In this document: piece after piece, positions 1 to 30,641 of the stretch | How positions within the stretch are numbered: position 1 is the stretch's first letter | Layout: every line of letters begins with the position of its first letter | Source: Prochloraceae cyanobacterium | GTDB taxonomy: Bacteria; Cyanobacteriota; Cyanobacteriia; Cyanobacteriales; JASJDA01 | Direction of reading: 5' to 3' | Length of the DNA: 36,960 nt | Assembly (NCBI GenBank): GCA_030065755.1 | Contig: JASJDA010000037.1 | Coordinates: 1 to 36,960, forward strand | Program-made: the position numbers and the translations under genes | Notes under the pieces: generated by a model | What the model was told of the DNA's origin: nothing | Database searches by the model: none | Seen by the model: the letters and a program-made list of their open reading frames with translations, nothing else

Positions 1-238
1 TGGTAACTGCCCGCTTCTGATGCTGCTATCTCTAGTCCTTGCTAAGAGATAGGACATACCTAAAATAAAGAACATCGTATCTTTATCTTAAAGGTTAGGT
101 GCGCTCCCAGCAATAAGAAGTAAAGTTTTAGGAGTTGGAAATATCTTAAAGCTCAATCCTGTAAGCAGGATGTAGATGACTACAGTGGTGGTTACTGAAT
201 CACCTCCCTCACCGGAGGAATCCTTCTCTCTTTTTTTT
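1..238 (+). ncRNA. tracrRNA of type V-K CAST (5' end cut by window)
   Basis: As recalled from the ShCAST tracrRNA, the conserved blocks are GGTARCTG, TGATGCTGCT, the invariant AGGTGCGCTCCCAGCAATAA (here 99-118) and GTGG-TACTGAATCACC (here 187-204), and all occur in the right order. A stem CCTCC/GGAGG (203-207 with 214-218) is followed by the anti-repeat AATCCTTCT (219-227) and a run of eight T (231-238) that probably marks the 3' end. The RNA would pair with crRNA repeats and hold Cas12k. The 5' part, roughly 80 nt in ShCAST, is left of the window. Open reading frames on both strands across this segment have no support. Confidence 0.88.
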
Positions 239-426
239 GGCGCAGCGAAGCGGGGGCAAAATCCCCAGAGTCCCGTCAAAATGCTCAAACCATTGCCAGT
301 TCGTAAATTAGCTTGTAAGTTAAGCATCGCGATCTCGTCTTCAAAAGTAGATTTATATCTGGTTTTAAGAGACTTGACTTTCATCAGTTATAAAAGTCAA
401 ATGTAGCAAGGTTTGAGACGGGCGGA

Positions 427-537
427 GTTTCAATAACCCTCCCGATCGGGGGTGGGTTGAAAGAAGATCCAATTACCGCGAATATAAGTTCTCTCACCTG
501 GTTTCAATAACCCTCCCGATTGAGAATGGGTTGAAAA
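427..537 (+). CRISPR. Two-repeat CRISPR array of V-K CAST type
   Basis: Repeat 1 is 427-463 (37 nt) and repeat 2 is 501-537. Both begin GTTTCAATAACCCTCCCGAT and end GGGTTGAAA. Repeat 1 has CGGGGG where repeat 2 has TGAGAA, and repeat 2 ends in A instead of G. Spacer 1 is 464-500 (37 nt); spacer 2 is 538-573 (36 nt) and leads into a third, degenerate repeat listed separately. The repeat resembles the V-K CAST repeats I recall (GTTTCAA-AACC-TCCCG...GGGTTGAAAG). No adaptation genes are visible, as is normal for CAST arrays. The direction follows the GTTTCAA...GAAAG convention and the co-directional tracrRNA. Confidence 0.9.
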
Positions 538-573
538 TATTAGGACACGAGCAAAAAAATTGTGGCGATCCTA

Positions 574-638
574 GTTTCAAAAATCTTCCCGAAACGATCG
601 ACAGAAAAGAAGGATTGAAAGGAGCACACTCTTGGTAA
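574..638 (+). ncRNA. Delocalised homing crRNA: degenerate repeat plus tRNA-Thr spacer
   Basis: The degenerate repeat runs from GTTTCAA (574-580) to GGATTGAAAG (612-621). It is 48 nt instead of 37 because the middle is expanded. The next bases, 622-638, read GAGCACACTCTTGGTAA. The tRNA-Thr(GGT) fragment at 815-861 reads CACCCTTGGTAA on its own strand, which matches the last 12 bases with one difference (C to U, still able to wobble-pair with G). The preceding GAGCA is what a D-stem GAGC plus base 26 would supply. A 17-nt match behind a degenerate repeat is the known form of the delocalised guides that V-K CASTs use to home to tRNA genes. The usual D-loop GGTA would give the GTN PAM. Confidence 0.85.
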
Positions 639-698
639 TTTACGGAAATTCTAAGTTTGATTGATATCTTAGCAGTATATAGCTTCGTTTTGGAAATG

Positions 699-809
699 CG
701 ACACTTAATTTGTGAACGATAGCTTTAACTAATTTACGACAGCAATTTGTTAAACAGCGACAATAATTTGTGAACAACGACACTTAATTTGTGAATGTTG
801 TACTGTACA
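699..809 (-). repeat. Transposon end with four TnsB-type binding repeats
   Basis: Four copies of one motif lie in the same direction: CGACACTTAATTTGTGAA at 699-716, CGACAGCAATTTGTTAA at 737-753, CGACAATAATTTGTGAA at 758-774 and CGACACTTAATTTGTGAA again at 778-795. The first and last are identical. Starts are spaced 38, 21 and 20 bp. The outermost copy is followed by TGTTGTAC and the palindromic TGTACA terminus (804-809), read inwards as TGTACAGTAC on the minus strand. Known V-K CAST ends share the TGTACA tip and this kind of repeat. Assigning TnsB as the binding protein rests on the family. Confidence 0.88.
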
Positions 810-814
810 TAAAA

Positions 815-861
815 AGCCCGTGACGAGGATTGAACTCGTGACCTCACCCTTACCAAGGGTG
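815..861 (-). pseudogene. 3' half of tRNA-Thr(GGT), attachment-site remnant
   Basis: On the minus strand the segment reads an anticodon arm CACCC-TTGGTAA-GGGTG with anticodon GGT (852-854), variable bases AGGTC, a T arm ACGAG-TTCAATC-CTCGT, and the 3' acceptor strand CACGGGC with discriminator T at 815. No D arm or 5' acceptor strand (expected GCCCGTG) follows at 862 and beyond, where the sequence becomes AT-rich and unrelated. It cannot fold as a complete tRNA. The break at the 5' edge of the anticodon stem, next to a tyrosine recombinase gene, is the usual scar of tRNA-targeted integration. The CAST inserted 5 bp beyond the 3' end. Confidence 0.88.
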
Positions 862-904: not shown

Positions 905-926
905 TTTTAGGTCAGTTTTAGGTCAG
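905..926. repeat. Perfect tandem 11-bp repeat between att remnant and integrase
   Basis: TTTTAGGTCAG occurs twice without a gap at 905-915 and 916-926. It is 44 bp from the tRNA fragment and 71 bp upstream of the integrase start. Its place suggests arm-type recombinase or excisionase sites, or an operator for the integrase. That role is inferred from position only. Confidence 0.55.
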
Positions 927-996: not shown

Positions 997-2130
997 ATGA
1001 CCGCACCAAAAAAAGTCTTGAATAATAACGGCTCTATTCGGATACGTTTTTCTCACAATGGTGTAAGATTCAATCTGAGCAATCTGGGTGATTATTACAA
1101 TCCGCTAGCTAGAAAACACGCACAGACTATATGCGATCGAATAGGTCTAGATATAGCCAGTGGAAACTTTAGCTGTACAGATAACACTGAACTAAAATTC
1201 AAATACCTTCCTAATGAAAGTCCGACATCTCTTAATTTTGTTTCTCAAGAAGTTGAAGATTCTGTCGAAGAGATAGCTGCAAGAGAAAAAACACTGCTAA
1301 TTGATAAGCTTAAAAAACGTTTAGAAACTCAGTATCATTGTTCAGATCGAGCATTAATATCTCTTTTACAAAACTACAATAAATCTTTAGAGAGTATTGA
1401 AGATGCAGAAAATTTTATTGAATGGATTAGAAAAACTCGAAAAGTTAAGAACTCTACATTACAAAGATATCTAAATACTCTGAAAGTTATTTCATCTCTG
1501 TTCAAGACAATCAAAATTAAATCTGAACCTAAACCATTACCTAAACCTTTTTCTGTTGAAGAAGTTAGAGCTATAATCAATTGGTTTGAGAATCACAAAT
1601 ATTACTCCTTTTATGCAGATTATGTAAAATTTCTATTTCTAACTGGTTCTAGAACTAGTGAAGCAATTGGCCTTCAATGGAAACATATTGATTTCGATCG
1701 GAATCTAATGTTTATTTATGAATCTTTAGGGCGCGATCGCGATCGTTCGGCTAAAAGAATTCGGAAACCTACCAAAAATAAACAATTAAGAGAATTTCCT
1801 TTATCAAATAGCTTACTTGAATTATTGAAATCTCGGTATTCTGGAAGTAAGAAAAGTACTAAATCTTTAGTTTTCCCCAGCCCTAACGGGAAAGCAATTG
1901 ACGATCGCAATTTCTCTCAACGTATTTGGAAAAAATGTCTGAAAGAACTAGAAATTGAGCATAGACCCAGTTACAATACTCGCCATACTTTTATTTCTCA
2001 CTTTCTGGAAAAAACTAAAGATGTGGTTAAGTGTGCCAGTCTTACTCATGGCTCAAAATCTGGAATTCAAACAATTTATAAGAATTATGCAGGAATTATT
2101 TCGCGTTTGGAAGTACCTGAGCTATTTTGA
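997..2130 (+). CDS. Tyrosine recombinase / phage-type integrase
   Basis: The 377-residue protein has the three parts of a tRNA-targeting integrase. Residues about 12-60 (GSIRIRFSHNG...LDIASGNF) look like an arm DNA-binding domain of the DUF3596 type. Residues about 95-180 form the SAM-like core-binding domain. Residues about 185-370 are the catalytic domain. Visible catalytic residues are R219 (LTGSRTSEAIGL), R329-H330 (YNTRHTF), H351 and probable nucleophile Y361 (TIYKNY). The first histidine of the usual HxxRH box is replaced by Y326, which also occurs in active relatives. The gene reads away from the tRNA-Thr remnant, so its element extends to the right, and an intact tRNA-Thr(GGT) is expected at its far end. 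The ATG at 997 has no clear Shine-Dalgarno. The reading frame is complete, so activity is plausible. Confidence 0.9.
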   Translation: MTAPKKVLNNNGSIRIRFSHNGVRFNLSNLGDYYNPLARKHAQTICDRIGLDIASGNFSCTDNTELKFKYLPNESPTSLNFVSQEVEDSVEEIAAREKTLLIDKLKKRLETQYHCSDRALISLLQNYNKSLESIEDAENFIEWIRKTRKVKNSTLQRYLNTLKVISSLFKTIKIKSEPKPLPKPFSVEEVRAIINWFENHKYYSFYADYVKFLFLTGSRTSEAIGLQWKHIDFDRNLMFIYESLGRDRDRSAKRIRKPTKNKQLREFPLSNSLLELLKSRYSGSKKSTKSLVFPSPNGKAIDDRNFSQRIWKKCLKELEIEHRPSYNTRHTFISHFLEKTKDVVKCASLTHGSKSGIQTIYKNYAGIISRLEVPELF

Positions 2131-2685: not shown

Positions 2686-3171
2686 TTACACTTTTAGAGA
2701 CTGTTTATAAAGGTCGAAAACTGTACCGTCAATACCCATCCACCGTAACCCATTCAGAAAAGCTCCTGGTGTTTGAGGAGTTGCCAGAGGTCTTGCTAGC
2801 TTCTCAAAGAGGCGAGTCATGACCCTTGGTCCTACTCGTTGACGAGCTTCACTGATGGAAGATTTACTTGGAGTCCGCCAACGATATTTTTGAGGAATCC
2901 ATTGAGCAGCCAGTCCCGCAATTAAATTCTTGAAGACATCTGCAATACTCTCAGTTGACCAGAAATTGAAGGCAATGACCAAGCCCATGATAACGTGAGT
3001 GGGTAAAATCCGCTCTCGTTTTTCTCGGCTGTTTGTTTCATCGGAGCGCAAGCGCTGCTGCAAGCAGTTCGCACTCTCAATCGTTTCTTGAGAAAGTACT
3101 GTTTCCAGAGCTGGCAATAAGTCACCTGGTTCAATATCTGGGGGAATCAGAGTAAATTTGGAGATTTGCAT
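2686..3171 (-). pseudogene. Truncated IS4-family transposase, N-terminal part
   Basis: The 161-residue frame matches the N-terminal domain of IS4-type transposases: a polar start, a helical segment with THVIMGLVIAFNFWS, then SSISEARQRVG and LRWMGIDGTVFDLYKQ. The aspartate in MGIDGT is the expected first DDE residue. The frame stops 11 residues later, whereas full-length members have about 350-450 residues and further D and E motifs, which are absent. The ATG at 3171 fits a normal start. The product cannot be catalytic, so this is a remnant. It lies between the 184-bp MITE and a small gene remnant, suggesting that its arrival and partial loss removed the 5' part of the neighbour. Confidence 0.8.
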
Positions 3172-6336: not shown

Positions 6337-7579
6337 AAGAGATAAAAATCCTTAAAGGGTTAGCCAAAAACCCGCTAGACACTCGTTCAAAACTGAATCT
6401 GTGGTTACTTTTAACTAATATATTTGCCGAGCCATTAATATCTGAATTACACAAATGCTTATCTTTAGTTCTATACAATCCACGCTTTATTCTCCTTCCA
6501 GAGAATTTATGCTTGGCTGGATTATCGGCATTGTAGACAGGTATCTCGTCTCGGTCGTAGAAACTTCCTTTAGAAGAATAACTTTCCTCTTGCTCCAAAT
6601 ATTCAATCCCATATCTAGAACAAAGCCCTTCAAGCTTAAGTCTCAACTGCCAAAAAGGTATCTCAACGAAATTCTGATTATTGGTACGTCCAATATTAAT
6701 CTGTTGTTTGATACCAGGGTTATATCCGACTATCAGTTTGCCTATTTGATGTTCAAGGCAATGAGCAATTATTACCTTAACTGCCTTATTCAAATAGTCC
6801 CTAACGCAGTTATGACGCCATTGATAAAGTTTTGCTTGTTTATGGGTAAACGATTTTATTCCTTGCTTGTCTTTTTTGGATTGAAGGATGCCATTGCGTT
6901 TGTTGTACCACTGATTAATGCTTTTGAGTCGTTGGCCATCAATCAAGAATTGATGCCCATCAGTGTCGATACAAGCAGCAAGATTATCAACCCCCAAATC
7001 CAAAGCGATAGCCTTACTGGAGTCAACAGATGTTTTTACTTTTTCCTCCTGATAGATGTACTCAATCTCAAACCAACGAGCCGAGTATTTTGGATGTATT
7101 CGTACCTCCTTAATCTTTTTATTATGAAGTCTTTCTGGCAGTTGAATTTTAACTTTTCCATATTCGTTTTTAAACTCGCGAGACATTGGAACTGTAAAGT
7201 AACCGTCTTTAAGTTTAATTCTGGGAATAATCAAAGGGAAATATCCTTCTTTGGGCAAGTATCTAGGCAATTGTGGTCTTTGGTCACACTTGCCAATACT
7301 AATAGCTTGAAGCAATCCCACGAAAGACTTCATGCTTCTGTCTACTACTTTCATAGTCTGTTGAGCAATATCGGTATTCAACAGCCGATAATTATCGTTC
7401 GACTTGCAGAGATGGTAGTTAGATTCGTAGCTCAGGCGTTTTCTTTCTCTAAAGAAATACTGCCTAGCCTCGTACAATGCCACGTTAAAAAGATTTTTGC
7501 TCAAGCGAGTCAAAGCTACAAGAGCGTTGAACTCTTGCTTGCTAAGTCGTCTGAGTTGATTTTTTTGGGTGGCGTACAT
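6335..7579 (-). CDS. tnpB: TnpB RNA-guided nuclease, variant RuvC-II and no zinc finger
   Basis: The 414-residue protein has the TnpB order: a helical N-terminal domain, a beta-rich wedge segment (about 110-180) and a RuvC-like core. RuvC-I is IALDLGVDNLAA with D194 and RuvC-III is NSDINGSANIL with D380. At the usual RuvC-II position the sequence is LIVGYNPGIKQ, without the canonical glutamate. A later EQEESYSSKGSF segment offers E331/E332, as in TnpB groups reported to have a relocated catalytic glutamate. The C-terminal zinc-binding CxxC pairs are absent (FSGRRIKRGLYRTKDKHLCNSD). The open frame is complete and overlaps the RNA scaffold region. Such proteins cut DNA next to the element's target motif, which keeps the element in place. 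Confidence 0.9.
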   Translation of the reverse strand: MYATQKNQLRRLSKQEFNALVALTRLSKNLFNVALYEARQYFFRERKRLSYESNYHLCKSNDNYRLLNTDIAQQTMKVVDRSMKSFVGLLQAISIGKCDQRPQLPRYLPKEGYFPLIIPRIKLKDGYFTVPMSREFKNEYGKVKIQLPERLHNKKIKEVRIHPKYSARWFEIEYIYQEEKVKTSVDSSKAIALDLGVDNLAACIDTDGHQFLIDGQRLKSINQWYNKRNGILQSKKDKQGIKSFTHKQAKLYQWRHNCVRDYLNKAVKVIIAHCLEHQIGKLIVGYNPGIKQQINIGRTNNQNFVEIPFWQLRLKLEGLCSRYGIEYLEQEESYSSKGSFYDRDEIPVYNADNPAKHKFSGRRIKRGLYRTKDKHLCNSDINGSANILVKSNHRFSFERVSSGFLANPLRIFIS

Positions 7580-7719
7580 CTCAATTATTTTCGCTACAGA
7601 ATTAATTATATAGCGAAAAAAATTGTTTGTATATACTCACGGGCAGTAAACTACCCGTGTCGTGTTTCCTCCCATGCCTAAAGGCGATGGGTTTCCACAC
7701 TTCCCGTACTAACTTAACT

Positions 7720-8325
7720 ATGAAATTTAACAATTTGCTTTTACCTATAGCAATTTTAGGTTTAGCTGCTTTAGGGTTTGGCGTTGCTTACAGTGCTGCT
7801 TCTGCACCCTTACCAGAAGGATTTCCACCACCAACCCCAGATGGACAAATAAAAGTCAAACAATATCCAGCATATCGTGCGGCTACATTTCGCTATCAAG
7901 GAGAGCTATCTCAAGCAGCTAATCGAGCTTTTTCTCCCCTCTTCAACCACATTAGCTCTAATGATATATCTATGACCGCACCAGTGGAAACTCGCTATCC
8001 CACTAGCACTAATGGCTCTCTGGAGGAACAAGGGACAGCCCAAGTCTCTTTTTTGTATCGCAGCACTGATATTTATCCCGATGAAATTGCCTCAAATATT
8101 GAGATCGAAGATATTGCTCCAATGACTGTGGTCAGTTTGGGACTTAAGGGAAGTTATACCTATCAAAGCTATATAGAGAGTTTGCAAAAGTTAAAGGACT
8201 GGCTCGATCGACATGAAGAATATCGCGCGGTTGGATCGCCTCGCCGTTTTTTCTATGATGGCCCATATATTCCAGATAGTCTTAAACGCAGTGAAATTCA
8301 AATTCCCATTGAGCCAGTTGAATAG
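7720..8325 (+). CDS. SOUL-family heme-binding protein, secreted or membrane-anchored
   Basis: The ATG at 7720 gives 201 residues starting MKFNNLLLPIAILGLAALGF, a clear signal or anchor segment ending near AYSAASA. The mature part has the SOUL/HBP pattern: IKVKQYPAYRAATFRYQG, FSPLFNHISSNDISMTAPVE, a strand ending VSFLYRS, and the C-terminal FFYDGPYIPDSLKRSEIQIP. SOUL proteins bind heme or tetrapyrroles; the exact bacterial role is not settled. Longer in-frame starts reach into the left end of the tnpB element and are rejected. It converges on the TPR gene through a shared hairpin. Confidence 0.88.
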   Translation: MKFNNLLLPIAILGLAALGFGVAYSAASAPLPEGFPPPTPDGQIKVKQYPAYRAATFRYQGELSQAANRAFSPLFNHISSNDISMTAPVETRYPTSTNGSLEEQGTAQVSFLYRSTDIYPDEIASNIEIEDIAPMTVVSLGLKGSYTYQSYIESLQKLKDWLDRHEEYRAVGSPRRFFYDGPYIPDSLKRSEIQIPIEPVE

Positions 8326-23139: not shown

Positions 23140-23871
23140 TCAATTCCATCGATCGATAATATCGAGCATTTTTTCTTTAGAAAGAGTACCTTTGGGTAGG
23201 CATTCTTGTACTTCCTTAAAGGTCTTAAATTTTTTTGTCTGGTTTTTCTCTTTCTCCTCTCGAAGTCGATCGGCTATTTTGGTCGCTTTTTTATTCCCTA
23301 GAAAAGCTAATTTTTTAATAACCATTTGGTAAAATGTTGGCTCTAAAATGCGATCGAATGCTTCTAATGGTGGTAGAGGCTTGGGTATTTTAGAATCAAT
23401 ATTTTTTATAATTTCAAGCTTAGATTGTTCGATATTGGTGCTAATTTTTTCGCCTAAGTCAGTCTGTAATTTGCCGAGCATAGAGGTAATATTATTCAAT
23501 TGCAGCTCAGTTGTATTGGGTTGTTTGGAGTTAGAATCAATCGTATTTGATACCTTCTGAATTGCTTCAAGCTGTTCGAGAGCAATCTCAATAGCATCCC
23601 GATCGAAAATAAAAACTCGAAGACGATCGGGTAATTTTGGCTCTAATTCTATAGCTTTTAAAGTTGCATAATATTCTAAATATCCAGAGATTAGTTGATA
23701 AGACTCTACTCCAGTTCTTTTGACTATAGGAATTGTTAATAATCCTTGTAGCTTAACAATAGAATGTGCTAAATGTTCGATTTCTAATTTTTTAGTTTCC
23801 GGATTAAAATTAGAGTCTTCTGGTTTAAGTTCAATACTATCTAAATCTACTAATGACGTTGATAAATCCAT
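23140..23871 (-). CDS. ParB-like N-terminal domain protein with non-canonical motif
   Basis: The 243-residue protein starts with a ParB/Sulfiredoxin-like fold (DLDSIELKPEDSNFNPETK, then LAHSIVKLQGLLTIPIVKR and YQLISGYLEYYATLKA). In ParB the last segment normally reads GERR, whose arginines bind CTP. Here it is GYLE, so CTP-dependent clamp behaviour is doubtful. A central polar segment is followed by a C-terminal basic helical part (KKATKIADRLREEKEKNQTKKFK, then LPKGTLSKEKMLDIIDRW) with no standard ParB helix-turn-helix that I can see. It starts 12 bp after the nuclease-ParA gene stops, so the two form an operon. It may be an adaptor for that ATPase rather than a centromere-binding partition protein. 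Confidence 0.75.
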   Translation of the reverse strand: MDLSTSLVDLDSIELKPEDSNFNPETKKLEIEHLAHSIVKLQGLLTIPIVKRTGVESYQLISGYLEYYATLKAIELEPKLPDRLRVFIFDRDAIEIALEQLEAIQKVSNTIDSNSKQPNTTELQLNNITSMLGKLQTDLGEKISTNIEQSKLEIIKNIDSKIPKPLPPLEAFDRILEPTFYQMVIKKLAFLGNKKATKIADRLREEKEKNQTKKFKTFKEVQECLPKGTLSKEKMLDIIDRWN

Positions 23872-23883
23872 ATTTCTTTAATT

Positions 23884-25335
23884 CTATTTAATGCCAACTA
23901 ATTCCATTACTTCTGTAGCTAGGTTTTCAAACTCTTCAGCAGCTATTGAATTTGGTTTATAATCTAAAATTGATTTGGGATCTGGTACATCTAGATCTCC
24001 TATTTCAAGACTATTTTCGATCGCTGCTGATACGTCACGACGTTCAAAAATTCTAGATTTCATTAGTTGGAAACCATAACGTTCTTTAACAGTCTTTTCC
24101 ATATTAGGTAAAATATATTTAACAAACCGCTGATGAGTACCAATTTTAGAAGGTAGTACACCCAATATTTCGATCGGTTCTTTTCCAATTACTCCTTTAA
24201 ACTCGTTAATTTCTTCAATAAATTTCTTGACGTTAACAAGTCCTTCATTAGCGAAAGGTTTTAGGTCTGAAGGGATAATTAAATAATCTGCGGCAATTAT
24301 AGCGACTTTAGCATATAGATTCAGTGATGGCGGTGTATCGAGCAAGACAACATCATATTTATCTTTACTCTTTTGCAGTTTAGCTAATATTCTGGTACGA
24401 GTTGCATCTATTTCAGCTAGTTCTTTTTCGTGATGCATTAAATTTATGTGACTGGGAATAACGTCAAATTCTGGTGTAGTAAATTTAGAACGACGCACCA
24501 CATCTGAGATAAAGTATTTATTTTTTTCTCGCAAGACGTGATAGATGTAATTATCTTTAATATTATCCTGCATTTCATCTTGAAATTTTATTAATCCAGC
24601 CGCATAAGTAGTATTAGCTTGACTGTCGAGATCGATGACTAAAACTTTTTGACCTTTTTTACTTAAAGCTGCTGCTAAATTAACAACTGTCGTGGTTTTA
24701 CCTACACCACCTTTATTGTGATAAACTGCAATTACTTTCATTTCTTTACCTCTTGGAGAAACCTTAGATTCTCTCTGATTATTGGTCTGAATTGAGATTG
24801 AATTGACAATTTCTTCTTTGCCAATTATTTTTTTTATTTCTGATATTTTATTTTCAGTATCTCTACCTTGTATTGTGAGAATAAGGCTGGTTTGTTCGTG
24901 TTTGTGTTCGTAAATTCTAACTACTTTGCCATTAGTTATTAAGCCAAAGTCTGCTTTGATACTTACTAAATACCTTGTAAATTTTCTCAGGTGATTGTCA
25001 AGATTTTGTTGAGGGTGCTTTGCTTCTACGATTAGTTTGGCATATTTTTTAGATTGCAGTCTAATTGGAGAAACTACTAAAAAATCGAACCGATGATTAG
25101 ATATTGTGACTTCTTGATACCAGTTATTAGGGGTATATCCTAATTGTGGAAGTAAATAGTGGACAATAAATTTACTTTCAACTTCAGATTCATTGCGACA
25201 ATTTTCAGGATTAAAAAAATGTTTGCTAATAATATAATCCTCCTCGTATAGTCTTATACTAATTTCTCTTGTGTTTGCTACAAATAATTTCGAGTGGGAG
25301 AGGGGGGGAGGGGGAAGAGGATATGTAGCAATCAT
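23884..25335 (-). CDS. Fusion of a restriction-type PD-(D/E)XK nuclease domain and a ParA ATPase
   Basis: The 483-residue protein has two parts. Residues about 45-160 match the N-terminal nuclease domain of type I restriction R subunits: ESKFIVHYLLPQLGY, HRFDFLVVSP with D84, and KLIVEAKHP with E104 and K106, then FGLITNGKVVRIYE. All three PD-(D/E)XK residues are present. Residues about 199-480 are a complete ParA/MinD ATPase: NKGGVGKTTT (208-216), VLVIDLDSQANTTYAAGL and YDVVLLDTPPSLNLYAK. A polar linker joins them. ParA proteins form ATP-dependent dimers on DNA for partition or positioning. A nuclease on such an ATPase is unusual and suggests DNA defence, plasmid-type maintenance or DNA positioning; which one is not shown by sequence. 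An internal start may also give ParA alone. Confidence 0.85.
   Translation of the reverse strand: MIATYPLPPPPLSHSKLFVANTREISIRLYEEDYIISKHFFNPENCRNESEVESKFIVHYLLPQLGYTPNNWYQEVTISNHRFDFLVVSPIRLQSKKYAKLIVEAKHPQQNLDNHLRKFTRYLVSIKADFGLITNGKVVRIYEHKHEQTSLILTIQGRDTENKISEIKKIIGKEEIVNSISIQTNNQRESKVSPRGKEMKVIAVYHNKGGVGKTTTVVNLAAALSKKGQKVLVIDLDSQANTTYAAGLIKFQDEMQDNIKDNYIYHVLREKNKYFISDVVRRSKFTTPEFDVIPSHINLMHHEKELAEIDATRTRILAKLQKSKDKYDVVLLDTPPSLNLYAKVAIIAADYLIIPSDLKPFANEGLVNVKKFIEEINEFKGVIGKEPIEILGVLPSKIGTHQRFVKYILPNMEKTVKERYGFQLMKSRIFERRDVSAAIENSLEIGDLDVPDPKSILDYKPNSIAAEEFENLATEVMELVGIK
24739..24753 (-). promoter_or_regulatory. Internal Shine-Dalgarno and start codon for stand-alone ParA
   Basis: On the minus strand AGAGG (24749-24753) is followed after 7 bases by an in-frame ATG (24739-24741), codon 199, which begins MKVIAVYHNKGGVGKTT exactly where an independent ParA would begin. 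The gene's first ATG at 25335 has no such site. A second product lacking the nuclease is plausible. Confidence 0.5.
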
Positions 25336-25445
25336 TTAGGAATTTGGTATTAAGGTATGATGTTGCTTTTTTAAGGTTTATTAAAGAATTCCTAAAAAAA
25401 TAGGTCTAATTAACATAGGAATTTAAAAAGTGTCTCCAAGATAAT

Positions 25446-28400
25446 TCAGTCGCACAAGTGCCGATCGCTCTCTTCTAACTGCTTATTGTTTTGTAGATAA
25501 TCTTTGACCCAATTGCAAGCATAAGCTAGTTCGTCGAGATTGAGAACTTTATCCAAATTCCAAAGAATGACGGTGCGATCGCTACTAGCAGAAGCGAGAA
25601 TGTTTCGCCCCCCGTAGGGGATCTCTTCGAGATCGGGGCTAAAAGCAACCCCTCTAACCCCACCAGAGTGTGCGGTCAGAGTTTTTAATAAAGTCCCGTC
25701 AGTTTTCCAGAGTTTGACTGTTTTGTCTAAAGAAGCAGAAGCAAGAATCTTTCCGTCGGGACTAAAGTCTACTCCCCAAACGGAAGCATTATGTCCACTA
25801 AGGGTTTTCAATAAGCTACCATCGGGCTGCCAGAGTTTAATCTTACTATCCGCTCCACCAGAAGCAATAAGGGCACCGTCGGGACTAAAATCTATTCCTC
25901 TAACTGGGGCTGTATGTCCACTTAGAGTTCTCAATAATTTCCCGTCCACTCCTCGCCAAAGTTTAATCGTATTATCAACAGAAGTAGAGGCAATTATCTC
26001 GCCGTCAGGATTCCAAGTAACTTCTCTTACTTGACCAATATGTCCGGTCAGAGTGCGTAGTAAATTGCCATTGGAATGCCTTAGTTTAACCTTATTGTTT
26101 GCCAAACCAGAGGCTATTTTCTCCCCGTCCGGACTAAAAGCAACACCCCAAACAATAACATTTTCCTCAAAGGTTCTCAGCAATTTGCCATTGGGTTCCC
26201 AGATTTTAACGGTAGTGTCTGCTGATGCGGATGCGAGTAAATTATTCGGGCTAAAATCTACATCAAAAACTGCACCCTTGTGTCCTTCAAAACTTCTCAG
26301 GAATTTGCCGTCGTTGCTCCAGAGTTTAACACTGCTGTCTGCTGATGTAGATGCCAATAAATTCCCGTCAAAGCTCCAGGCGACTCTCCTTACCCAACCT
26401 TCGTGCCCAGTAAGGATTGTATACAAACTGTTGTCAAGTTTCCAGAGTTTCACAGTTTCATCTTCACTAGCAGAGGCGATCGTCTGACCGTCAGGACTAA
26501 AAGCAATGGCTCTAACAAGAGCACTATGTCCTTTCAAAGTTCTCTGCAATCTCCCGTCTCGATGCCAGATTTTAACTGTAGCGTCCATAGAAGCAGAGGC
26601 CAGCATTTGTCCGTTATAACTCCAAGCAAGACCCAAAATCGTACCATTATGACCGGTTAGAGTTTTTAACAACTCGCCGTTAATGCTCCAGAGTTTGACT
26701 GTTCGATCTTCACCAGCAGAGGCAATTATCTCTCCGTCGGAACTAATTGCAACTGCTCTGACTCCACCATTATGACCGGAGAGAGTTTTCAATAACTTGC
26801 CGTTTTTACTCCAGAGTTTGACTGTTCCGTCGTCACTAGCAGAGGCAATTATCTCTCCGTCGGAACTAATTGCAACATCAACAACTGTACTGCTGTGTCC
26901 TTTTAATGTTCTCAACAACTTGCCCTTAATGCTCCAGAGTTTGACTGTTTTATCTGCACTAGCAGAGGCAATAAGGGCACCGTCGGAACTCAAAGTGACT
27001 GCTAAAACCCCTCCAATGTGTGCTTTTAATGTTTTCAATAACTTACCGCTCTTATGCCAAAGCAAGATATTTCCATCTGCACTAGCCGAGGCAATTATCT
27101 CGCCGTTTGGACTAAAAGTAACGGCCAAAACTCGTAAATTGTGACCAGTTAAAGTTCTCAAAAATTCGCCGTTTTTATTCCAGAGTTTGACTGTTTTATC
27201 TTCACTAGCAGAGGCAATTATCTCGCCGTCGGGACTAATGGCAACTCCCCAAAGCCCCGCATTATGACCTATTAGGCGATTGTACTCCTCTACCCCATAG
27301 ACGGCTTTAGTAAGTACAAATTTAGCTTTGCTTTTGAGCTTTGAGTCTACTTCTCCTAATTTTTGTAGTTTTTTATTTGCCTCGATCGCGGATAAAAGTG
27401 CTTCCAACCTTTGATTTGAGTCATATTTTCCAGTGGAAGAAGAAACTAATGCTTTAATTTCGCTAATTCTTGCTTCTCTTTCACTCTCAAGTGCTTTGAG
27501 CATATTATTTTCTGCTCTTTGATATTGCCTAAAAGTTATTATCACCAATCCAGAAACTACTAATAATGCTGAGCTGGCTGCACCCAGAAATATTCTTTGT
27601 AGCTTAGCGGTTTTTTGCTCTTGCAGTAGTCTTTTCTGTTCTTCTTCTAGTTGGGCTTCAATTGCTTTAGCCTTTTCTGCTTCTAATGCTTTTTGTATTT
27701 CATATTTGTCCAATTCTACCGACGCTGCTAGAAATTCATAATCTATATCGCTTAAACTTTTCCCCCGCGACCACATTTGAGCATCTTTCAATGCTTGTCC
27801 CCGCAACAAACGAGATCGATCTGTTTTCTTTGATGCTATCCAAGCTTCTAATACTTGAGAATACGGACGTAAGGAATTTAATTGTTTTTCTACCCATTCC
27901 GCGTTAAATATTTCTGTATAAATCCGGTTTTTTACCTTCAATACACCATTTTTTTTCACTACCAAACCTGACAAAATTAGTTCTATTTGTTCTCTACTGT
28001 CATCTATTTTTATTTTTTCTCCTTGTAAAATTAGCTGATATATTTCTAATAATTTAGCGGCACGTTTTTCATTTCTTTCGATCCTGTCTCTAATCGTTCT
28101 TAAATGCTCTGGTTTGTCATAAAATTCCCACTTGTACAATATCTTGTTTCTCACTATACTTTCTACCCTAAATTGTTCTTGACCTCGGGGAATAGTGAGT
28201 TGTCCACTTATTGTATCTTGACTAGCTTCTATTACTAATTTACATAATTTTTGCGTCAGAAATGGCTGCCCATTTGTCCAGGATAATATATGTTTGATAA
28301 TTTCTAAACTATTTTCTTGTTTGAGTTTTAATCCTGCTGCTAAAGGTTTGACTTGCTCTAGTGTAAAACCATCTAATTCGATCGCTCGACCAATATTAAA

Positions 28401-28982
28401 AGGCGTTCTGGTTTTATCTTTTATCAAGTCTGATGGCGCTGCTACCCCAAAAACACCAAATGTTATTCGCTTGTATTCTGGATCGATCGCTCGTTGATTG
28501 TAACAGAATCTGATCAGGGCAAAAAAGTCATCTACAGAAAAATCTAGACTGAGAATACTATCAATTTCATCGACAAATATGACGAGATTTCGATCGGGAA
28601 ATTCTGGAAGCAGAATATCTCTAATAAACCGACTCAATCTTTGCAGTAAAGAAATTTCTTCTTCTTGTTTCCACCATTTTTTTAGATTAACTTTTCCTAG
28701 AAGTTTAAAGCCCCGCCATAACTCACCCACTACTCCTTTATACCACTGTGTCGGAGTAATATTTTTACTGCCAATATTAGTTAAATCTACGGTGGTGCAT
28801 TCGATCCCTTCTTGTTGCAATTTATATCTGGTTCTCACCAACAGGGAGGACTTTCCCATTTGACGAGAATTGAGCACGTAGCAAAACTCTCCTCGTTTTA
28901 ATGCTTCATATAGTTGAGTGTCAGCCAGTCTTTCCACGTAAGTAGGAGAATCATTTTGCAGGCTACCACCGATCTGATACAT
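25446..28982 (-). CDS. AAA-like ATPase with transmembrane segment and 14 WD40 repeats
   Basis: The 1178-residue protein begins with an AAA-like (AAA_35 type) domain: Walker A SRQMGKSSLL with GKSS at 43-46, Walker B NLVIFVDEIDSI, and a winged-helix-like stretch up to about 400. A charged coiled coil (about 430-460) leads to one membrane helix at about 462-485 (FLGAASSALLVVSGLVIITF). From about 570 to 1150 I count 14 WD40 repeats of the form TGHN-GGVRAVAISSDGEIIASAS, enough for two seven-bladed propellers, presumably outside the membrane. The last repeat has an in-frame insertion from a palindromic repeat. STAND-like proteins of this type act as signal sensors. The ligand is unknown. It starts 27 bp after the GGDEF gene ends. 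Confidence 0.88.
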   Translation of the reverse strand: MYQIGGSLQNDSPTYVERLADTQLYEALKRGEFCYVLNSRQMGKSSLLVRTRYKLQQEGIECTTVDLTNIGSKNITPTQWYKGVVGELWRGFKLLGKVNLKKWWKQEEEISLLQRLSRFIRDILLPEFPDRNLVIFVDEIDSILSLDFSVDDFFALIRFCYNQRAIDPEYKRITFGVFGVAAPSDLIKDKTRTPFNIGRAIELDGFTLEQVKPLAAGLKLKQENSLEIIKHILSWTNGQPFLTQKLCKLVIEASQDTISGQLTIPRGQEQFRVESIVRNKILYKWEFYDKPEHLRTIRDRIERNEKRAAKLLEIYQLILQGEKIKIDDSREQIELILSGLVVKKNGVLKVKNRIYTEIFNAEWVEKQLNSLRPYSQVLEAWIASKKTDRSRLLRGQALKDAQMWSRGKSLSDIDYEFLAASVELDKYEIQKALEAEKAKAIEAQLEEEQKRLLQEQKTAKLQRIFLGAASSALLVVSGLVIITFRQYQRAENNMLKALESEREARISEIKALVSSSTGKYDSNQRLEALLSAIEANKKLQKLGEVDSKLKSKAKFVLTKAVYGVEEYNRLIGHNAGLWGVAISPDGEIIASASEDKTVKLWNKNGEFLRTLTGHNLRVLAVTFSPNGEIIASASADGNILLWHKSGKLLKTLKAHIGGVLAVTLSSDGALIASASADKTVKLWSIKGKLLRTLKGHSSTVVDVAISSDGEIIASASDDGTVKLWSKNGKLLKTLSGHNGGVRAVAISSDGEIIASAGEDRTVKLWSINGELLKTLTGHNGTILGLAWSYNGQMLASASMDATVKIWHRDGRLQRTLKGHSALVRAIAFSPDGQTIASASEDETVKLWKLDNSLYTILTGHEGWVRRVAWSFDGNLLASTSADSSVKLWSNDGKFLRSFEGHKGAVFDVDFSPNNLLASASADTTVKIWEPNGKLLRTFEENVIVWGVAFSPDGEKIASGLANNKVKLRHSNGNLLRTLTGHIGQVREVTWNPDGEIIASTSVDNTIKLWRGVDGKLLRTLSGHTAPVRGIDFSPDGALIASGGADSKIKLWQPDGSLLKTLSGHNASVWGVDFSPDGKILASASLDKTVKLWKTDGTLLKTLTAHSGGVRGVAFSPDLEEIPYGGRNILASASSDRTVILWNLDKVLNLDELAYACNWVKDYLQNNKQLEESDRHLCD
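25605..25638. repeat. Palindromic repeat inserted in frame in WD40 repeat 14
   Basis: The core GGATCTCTTCGAGATCG (25619-25635) is the complement of the intergenic copy at 16409-16425. In the protein the usual FSPDG-ILASAS becomes FSPD-LEEIPYGGRN-ILASAS, so about ten residues come from the repeat and the frame is kept. Confidence 0.65.
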
Positions 28983-29009
28983 CAGTATATTTAGTTATCT
29001 TAGTTGACT

Positions 29010-30641
29010 CTAATGAATATTCCCTATCTTGCCTATATTTATTCGATCGCGTCCGAGTTTTTTCGATCGATAAAGTGCTTCATCTGTCGCACGCAATAGT
29101 ATAGTTGGGTCGGTTTCGGGATGAGGAATTATGCTGGTAAGACCTATACTAGCAGTTACAATTTTTAACTCAACTTTAGATTTAATATGCTCGATCGCTT
29201 TTGCTTTAATGCTGTTTTGGATTTCTCCAGCAATACAAACAGCACCTTGTAGATTGGTTTGGGGTAAAATAACGGCAAATTCTTCACCCCCATAACGGGC
29301 TGCTAAATCCCCACCACGTTTGAGACAAGAATGAATAGCACTAGCCACTTGCTGCAAGCACTTATCTCCTGCTTGATGTCCGTAAGTATCGTTATAAAGT
29401 TTAAAACAGTCAATATCTAATAATATTAAAGATATGCTCTTTCGCTCGCGAGCCATACGTCGCCATTCTCGTTCTAAATGCTCGTCAAAGAGTCGTCTAT
29501 TGGAAATTTTAGTAAGAGCGTCTATATAAACTAAATTTCTTAATTCTTGGTTTTCTTTTTTTAAATTTTCTAGGGAAATTTGTTTTATTTCTTGTTGGTA
29601 TTGACCTGCAAAATAAAGACGATACATTTGACAAGAAGGATAAACGAGATCGCCATCTAATTTGACAAGTCCCAGACTCTCTAATTTATAACTAACAATT
29701 GGTTCTAAATTTACGCTCTCACTCTCACTATCCATTACTATCTGTTTGAGTGCTGCTGATAGTTTTGGTTGTTTTTGTATTATTTCCCAGCGATCGCGTA
29801 AAATACTGCCATAAATTCCTCCCTGAGTAGGAGCAACTTTTAATAATTCTTCTAATGTTATTTGTTCTAGAGCCAAATGGTAGAGAGCAACGCGCACTAA
29901 ATAAGGATGTCCTCCTACCATTGCCATCAATTGCTGAGCTTCATTTGCTCCCGTCCAGTTTAGTCCGTGTCTGCCAGCTAAATCTCGAACTTGCTCTAAA
30001 TTAAATTCTGATAACTTTATTGGCAATCCTATATTAAATGGAGATTGATTAATATCTAAGGATAGGTAAACTTCTGTGGAGTGAACTACAACGAAACGCA
30101 GTTTTTGAAATTGTATGCTTTGCCTTGCTTGTTCGTGCCAAAATCTCAACATAGGCAAGAATTCTTCAGCTATATGCTGATGTTCGAAAACTAAATTTAC
30201 TTCGTTTAATGCCAAGACGATGGGCGTGTCTATTTCCTCTAATAAATATCCTTCCAAATAGATTCCGCAGCTTACTTTACTCCCCATTTCCTCGTCCCAA
30301 TATTCGTCTAGGAGAGGCTTTAGTTTTAGCTGGCGAGCTATATTGGCACAAAACCAACGCAAAAATTTATTTAAGTTGGCATAAACTGCTGTATCTGCTT
30401 CCTGAAAGTCTATTTTTACTACTTTGTAGCTCTGTTTTCGAGCAAAATCGATAATTCTGAGGAGTAGGGAACTTTTTCCCATTTTCTGAGGTGCTTGAAT
30501 GCGAGTTACACTTCCTGGTTTGAGAATTTCATCGCAACTCAACTGCTCGCTAGGGGTCCGATCGACGTAAAAAGGAGACTCTAGGGGTACAGCACGATCG
30601 GGATATTCTAAAGACACTGCTTCAAGATTGTTTAAGAACAT
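29010..30641 (-). CDS. AAA-like ATPase fused to a GGDEF diguanylate cyclase
   Basis: The 543-residue protein has an N-terminal AAA-like domain related to the neighbour's: Walker A APQKMGKSSLL (GKSS at 55-58) and a Walker B-like IVLALNEVNLVF in which the usual Asp is Asn. Residues up to about 350 form the rest of that domain. A short coiled coil (LENLKKENQELRNLVYIDALT) leads to a GGDEF domain: NRRLFDEHLE, LILLDIDCFKLYNDTYGHQAGD and the active-site loop RYGGEEF (GGEEF at 451-455). An RxxD inhibition site (R442-G-G-D445) lies exactly five residues before it. The enzyme should make cyclic di-GMP from GTP under control of the N-terminal domain. It is the first gene of the four-gene minus-strand run. 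Confidence 0.9.
   Translation of the reverse strand: MFLNNLEAVSLEYPDRAVPLESPFYVDRTPSEQLSCDEILKPGSVTRIQAPQKMGKSSLLLRIIDFARKQSYKVVKIDFQEADTAVYANLNKFLRWFCANIARQLKLKPLLDEYWDEEMGSKVSCGIYLEGYLLEEIDTPIVLALNEVNLVFEHQHIAEEFLPMLRFWHEQARQSIQFQKLRFVVVHSTEVYLSLDINQSPFNIGLPIKLSEFNLEQVRDLAGRHGLNWTGANEAQQLMAMVGGHPYLVRVALYHLALEQITLEELLKVAPTQGGIYGSILRDRWEIIQKQPKLSAALKQIVMDSESESVNLEPIVSYKLESLGLVKLDGDLVYPSCQMYRLYFAGQYQQEIKQISLENLKKENQELRNLVYIDALTKISNRRLFDEHLEREWRRMARERKSISLILLDIDCFKLYNDTYGHQAGDKCLQQVASAIHSCLKRGGDLAARYGGEEFAVILPQTNLQGAVCIAGEIQNSIKAKAIEHIKSKVELKIVTASIGLTSIIPHPETDPTILLRATDEALYRSKKLGRDRINIGKIGNIH

Follow-up and report, generated by a model that had tools for sequence, protein, structure and literature searches.

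A putative type V-K CRISPR-associated transposon end beside a split tRNA-Thr and an integrase gene in a cyanobacterial genome

Introduction

The present analysis concerns a cyanobacterial contig that opens within a tracrRNA and runs from there through a short CRISPR array to a transposon end, and the question it raises is what kind of element ends here, where that element had inserted, and what has become of the landing site since. The published plan of type V-K CRISPR-associated transposons (CASTs) places the left end beside a tRNA, with a short repeat, a 17-nt anchor spacer and a GTN PAM, and the hallmarks of such a left end are a tracrRNA, 37-nt repeats, a repeat with its 17-nt anchor spacer, the end itself and a tRNA that points toward it (PMC9938897). 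The homing repeat is usually truncated to about 12 nt and separate from the array (PMC9938897), and a 2024 review called the origin of the homing unit unclear (PMC11656645). The window, i.e. the whole stretch of DNA analyzed, is the complete contig C295 of 36,960 bp, with base 1 falling inside the tracrRNA; its source is a cyanobacterial assembly of 8.46 Mb in 455 contigs, with an estimated contamination of 2.09%.

Results

Positions 1-809 of the window are very probably the left end, on the target-proximal side, of a type V-K CAST whose homing target was tRNA-Thr(GGT) (Table 1). All of the non-protein hallmarks of a V-K left end are present, that is, the tracrRNA, the 37-nt repeats, the anchor spacer, the left end and a tRNA that points at it, though now only with its 3′ part. 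No cas12k or tns gene is visible on C295, which begins inside the tracrRNA, and no other contig of the assembly joins to its base 1. An earlier note, made from the letters of the window, had read this stretch as the target-proximal end of a V-K CAST and had proposed a covariance search of the tracrRNA. The model used here (R1) was built, with the source genome excluded, by aligning the tracrRNAs that follow cas12k in 17 other genomes. When R1 was run on 50 loci lying downstream of cas12k outside the source genome, it recovered a tracrRNA in 48; 17 of these loci had gone into the model. The match of R1 to the window, together with the hallmarks, supports the earlier reading; the same search also matched contig C260 (E 1.1e-23) and two sites on contig C288 (1.2e-29 and 6.6e-28). 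Because an independently built tracrRNA model matched, and because the whole transposon-end stretch recurs on C260 at 91% identity, the signature is more than chance. The sole match of the whole stretch in a plasmid search was 100 nt of the tracrRNA region on a Calothrix plasmid, where no cas12k was annotated within the 30 kb examined around the match.

Table 1. Features of the transposon end and of the adjoining tRNA fragment and integrase module (window coordinates).
Feature	Position	Strand	Basis or remark
tracrRNA, 5′ part lost at contig end	1..230	+	covariance model R1, 85.3 bits, E 5.7e-21
tracrRNA anti-repeat AATCCTTCT	219..227	+	9-bp perfect complement of homing repeat end AGAAGGATT
CRISPR repeat 1, 37 nt	427..463	+	Rfam CRISPR-DR15 (reported on - strand), 41.6 bits
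Spacer 1	464..500	+	unlike C260 copy
CRISPR repeat 2, 37 nt	501..537	+	
Spacer 2	538..573	+	shared with C260 copy in diverged form
Enlarged homing (anchor) repeat, 48 nt	574..621	+	in array register
Anchor spacer GAGCACACTCTTGGTAA, 17 nt	622..638	+	16/17 match to tRNA-Thr(GGT) behind GGTA
Four TnsB-type end repeats	699-716, 737-753, 758-774, 778-795	+	TnsB assigned by comparison with V-K CAST ends
Left-end terminus TGTACA	804..809	.	same terminus on C260, C288 and other CASTs
tRNA-Thr(GGT) 3′ fragment, anticodon arm to 3′ end, 5′ half gone	815..861	-	C260 comparison
Two direct TTTTAGGTCA repeats	905-914, 916-925	+	putative arm-type integrase sites
Tyrosine recombinase, 377 aa, outside CAST	997..2130	+	Pfam PF00589 E 1.6e-21, PF12167 E 5.6e-5

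All single features named in the earlier note were recovered, including both array repeats, the four repeats of the form CGACA...AATTTGTKAA and the TGTACA terminus; the tracrRNA block AGGTGCGCTCCCAGCAATAA is present at 97-116 rather than at 99-118 as first given. The 37-nt repeat with the ending GTTGAAAG is exact in the first unit, and the second ends in GTTGAAAA. The earlier note did not contain the homing repeat with its anchor spacer, a third repeat in line with the array, nor the split tRNA-Thr and the integrase module beyond the end. Array units start at 427, 501 and 574, a spacing of 74 and 73. In its 5′ half the homing repeat agrees with the array repeat at 15 of 18 positions, and it ends in AGAAGGATTGAAAG. 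The protospacer matched by the anchor spacer lies in the intact tRNA-Thr(GGT) of C260, and its GGTA PAM is positioned 55 nt from the left end, within the published range of 46–82 nt (PMC9938897). About 40 V-K CASTs were surveyed; 37 others have a repeat with a 17-nt spacer against the adjacent tRNA, with at most two mismatches, and a long homing repeat close to the array form also occurred at L074, L075, L118 and L119. A plasmid search returned nothing for either array spacer of the window or for the first spacer of C260. By analogy with the family, a complex of Cas12k, tracrRNA and homing crRNA would bind the protospacer of tRNA-Thr next to its GGTA, and insertion by TniQ, TnsC and TnsB would follow at a distance of about 55 nt, a little beyond the 3′ end of the tRNA. 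The sequence TAAAA at 810-814 is a candidate 5-bp target duplication, one transposon end only lying in the window.

The tracrRNA anti-repeat fits the homing repeat better than it fits the array repeats, with a duplex energy of -9.4 kcal/mol for the homing repeat, whereas the duplexes with the array repeats reach -6.1 and -4.5. The homing repeat was the strictly stronger partner in 21 of 33 CASTs and equal or weaker in 12, and since these 33 loci are related, a preferential pairing of the anti-repeat with the homing repeat is suggestive only. The loop of one tracrRNA hairpin (159-168) is inverted between the two copies, reading CTGTAAGCAG in the window and CTGCTTACAG on C260.

The main rival to a full V-K CAST is a solo end, in which tracrRNA, array and left end have remained after loss of the cas12k and tns genes, with the CAST on C288 possibly acting in trans. 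The only complete cas12k and the only complete V-K tnsB in the assembly are both on C288, and CAST debris occurs elsewhere in the genome (C361 and C418), as a solo end might lead one to expect. The repeats and left-end sites of C288 are, however, unlike those of the window, and C295 and C260 start within 3 nt of each other, inside a stretch that is identical for at least 133 nt, as expected for a collapsed repeat. This shared break suggests that the assembly collapsed a longer identical repeat upstream and omits the contig that held it, and we regard the solo end as rather unlikely, if well worth keeping in mind.

The tRNA fragment beside this CAST end agrees base for base with the intact tRNA-Thr on C260 as far as 861 and diverges beyond that base; ARAGORN reported no tRNA at 815-861 and no tRNA-Thr anywhere in the window. 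A tRNA 3′ half next to an integrase is characteristic of elements that integrate within a tRNA anticodon arm, and the landing site of the CAST was probably cut in two later by such a second mobile element. A tyrosine-recombinase element, represented by the integrase module at 862-2130, would have split tRNA-Thr, the 3′ half staying next to the CAST. Integrative elements of this type rebuild an intact tRNA at their other end, and intact tRNA-Thr should accordingly have been restored at the far end of this one. An intact tRNA-Thr is present on C260, a contig unlinked to C295, and the other end of this element lies outside the window. Comparable arrangements were found in other genomes. In Limnofasciculus baicalensis (L040) an integrase with 63% identity lies beside the 3′ half of a tRNA-Val cut at the same place, and the TTTTAGGTCA repeat region is conserved there (88% over 904-936), while in the MAG MO_188.B32 (L039) an integrase remnant with 86% identity lies directly beyond tRNA-Tyr, in the normal place of tRNA-Thr. 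The integrase matched nothing among plasmids, and among phages only one from Planktothrix and one from Leptolyngbya at about 32–34% identity. A split tRNA beside the left end was seen at none of 15 other V-K loci checked, nearly all of them CASTs for which an intact tRNA had not been found. A search of relatives for the breakpoint to the right of the integrase returned just insertion-sequence debris and unrelated contexts. A 30-base sequence at 3043-3072 has dozens of copies in the genome and is present in two relatives too. Farther along the window, a row of genes on the - strand (23140-30641) encodes, judged from the translations, a ParB-like protein, a ParA-like protein that has an additional N-terminal domain, a large protein combining an ATPase-like part with WD40-type repeats, and an ATPase-GGDEF-like protein.

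The CAST end on C260 adjoins an intact tRNA-Thr, followed by tRNA-Tyr, and shares with the window the anchor spacer and spacer 2, while the first spacers differ. The left end is separated from the first G of the tRNA sequence (GCCC) by 6 nt in the window and by 4 nt on C260, which places the C260 insertion 2 nt closer to the tRNA, and because these distances differ the two insertions are separate events. C295 and C260 thus represent two insertions by related elements, and the position of the C260 end beside an intact tRNA-Thr, at a different insertion base, argues that the same att site was used twice. In a genome of the same genus (G001) an intact tRNA-Thr also occurs 2 nt from a TGTACA end. 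An order of events can be proposed in which a first CAST homed to tRNA-Thr before the integrase element arrived, the integrase element then split and rebuilt the tRNA, and the second CAST, that of C260, was inserted later at the rebuilt tRNA-Thr, which its position would fit. The contigs are not linked, and we would give this order roughly an even chance.

Two other accounts of the paired ends were considered. C295 and C260 could come from two strains mixed in the assembly, with no double use of the att site in one cell, and the fragmentation into 455 contigs and the 2.09% estimated contamination would be compatible with such a mixture. Against this, the 9% divergence and the different first spacers exceed what is expected for close strains and the tRNA contexts differ, intact on C260 vs. 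split on C295, such that a mixture of strains seems unlikely. Alternatively, the CAST may have jumped beside a tRNA 3′ fragment that was already serving as the attachment site of an integrative element and may hitchhike with the integrase element. It would then be of interest that C361 again joins a CRISPR repeat, a C-terminal fragment of cas12k and a piece of the same integrase, but the fragment in the window lacks the PAM and the first bases of the protospacer, its seed part, and the expected target is an intact tRNA-Thr; we consider hitchhiking improbable. That the end belongs instead to another Tn7-like element, e.g. a type I-D CAST or a TnsD-guided element, lying beside an ordinary CRISPR array is barely credible, as further Tn7-like transposases are indeed present in the genome but the V-K-type tracrRNA, the Cas12k-specific layout and the anchor spacer all speak against it. 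Homing of a V-K CAST to an intact tRNA-Thr remains our reading of the end in the window.

The CAST on C288 is complete, of a different kind, and inserted at tRNA-Ser(TGA) (L010 3027-6079, L011 4941-8529). Its genes are tnsB, tnsC, tniQ, which scores just below the Pfam cut-off, and cas12k with a MerR-type gene beside it; its cargo resembles an insecticidal Tc-type (Tc-toxin-like) complex, and GCTTCC borders both of its TGTACA ends. There are two tracrRNA copies, the second of which continues through a hairpin directly into a short repeat end with the anchor spacer behind it (L011, about 7459-8310). The same fusion of tracrRNA to homing guide was found at L084 (G013), L115 (G082) and L113 (G014), and at L113 the fused copy is the sole tracrRNA and there is no array. 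The fused form in these four V-K CASTs looks like a natural single-guide-like homing RNA, as predicted from sequence. A literature search returned no natural single-guide RNA in V-K CASTs, bioRxiv and most subscription papers being outside its scope.

Discussion

The end in the window is ordinary in kind, belonging to a known class, and it is the context and the state of the homing repeat that make it notable. It resembles left ends of the ShCAST, AcCAST and AnCAST kind in its tracrRNA, 37-nt repeats and GTN PAM, and other V-K CASTs in that a homing repeat with a 17-nt anchor spacer matches the adjacent tRNA directed at the left end (PMC9938897). It departs from them in that its homing repeat, at 48 nt, has the full length or more and closes the array as its last unit, instead of forming a short separate R* (PMC9938897), and in that the neighboring tRNA is reduced to its 3′ half. 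In C295 and a few other CASTs the homing repeat is still full-length and in register, and the homing unit of C295 can be seen as intermediate in form, with the ordinary array repeat on one side and the usual short, separate homing repeat on the other. It is possible, if on balance doubtful, that the homing guide began as the last array unit and that rebuilding of the tRNA by integrases reopens an occupied att site, so that CASTs stack at one tRNA. The pattern suggests how two mobile elements could take turns at one tRNA, the integrase element breaking and rebuilding the site and the CAST then being able to reuse it. C295 adds one more CAST to a lineage with several copies, and the fusion of tracrRNA to homing guide, should it hold at the RNA level, would amount to a natural single-guide RNA that serves transposition.

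The integrase module also has counterparts outside V-K CASTs. As in L. baicalensis, the integrase points away from a tRNA 3′ half that was broken within the anticodon arm, and the TTTTAGGTCA repeats are positioned between the two, whereas the L. baicalensis locus has a tRNA-Val and no CAST beside it. A tyrosine recombinase near a Tn7-like transposon is likewise a feature of the TnsF and Tsy target selectors (PMC10293859), but the recombinase of C295 is located beyond the transposon end, and its neighbor is a tRNA rather than comM.

Several fragments elsewhere in the assembly are recorded here in their own right. On C361 (L013 3354-4004) there is a short match to the C-terminus of cas12k and a CRISPR repeat, with a broken copy of the window integrase adjoining, and on C418 (L012 3795-3929) an N-terminal fragment of cas12k ends after about 46 codons. 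A different Tn7-like element on C8 (L014) combines a TnsA-like domain and a TnsB-like transposase in one protein and also carries a likely TnsC and a TniQ fragment.
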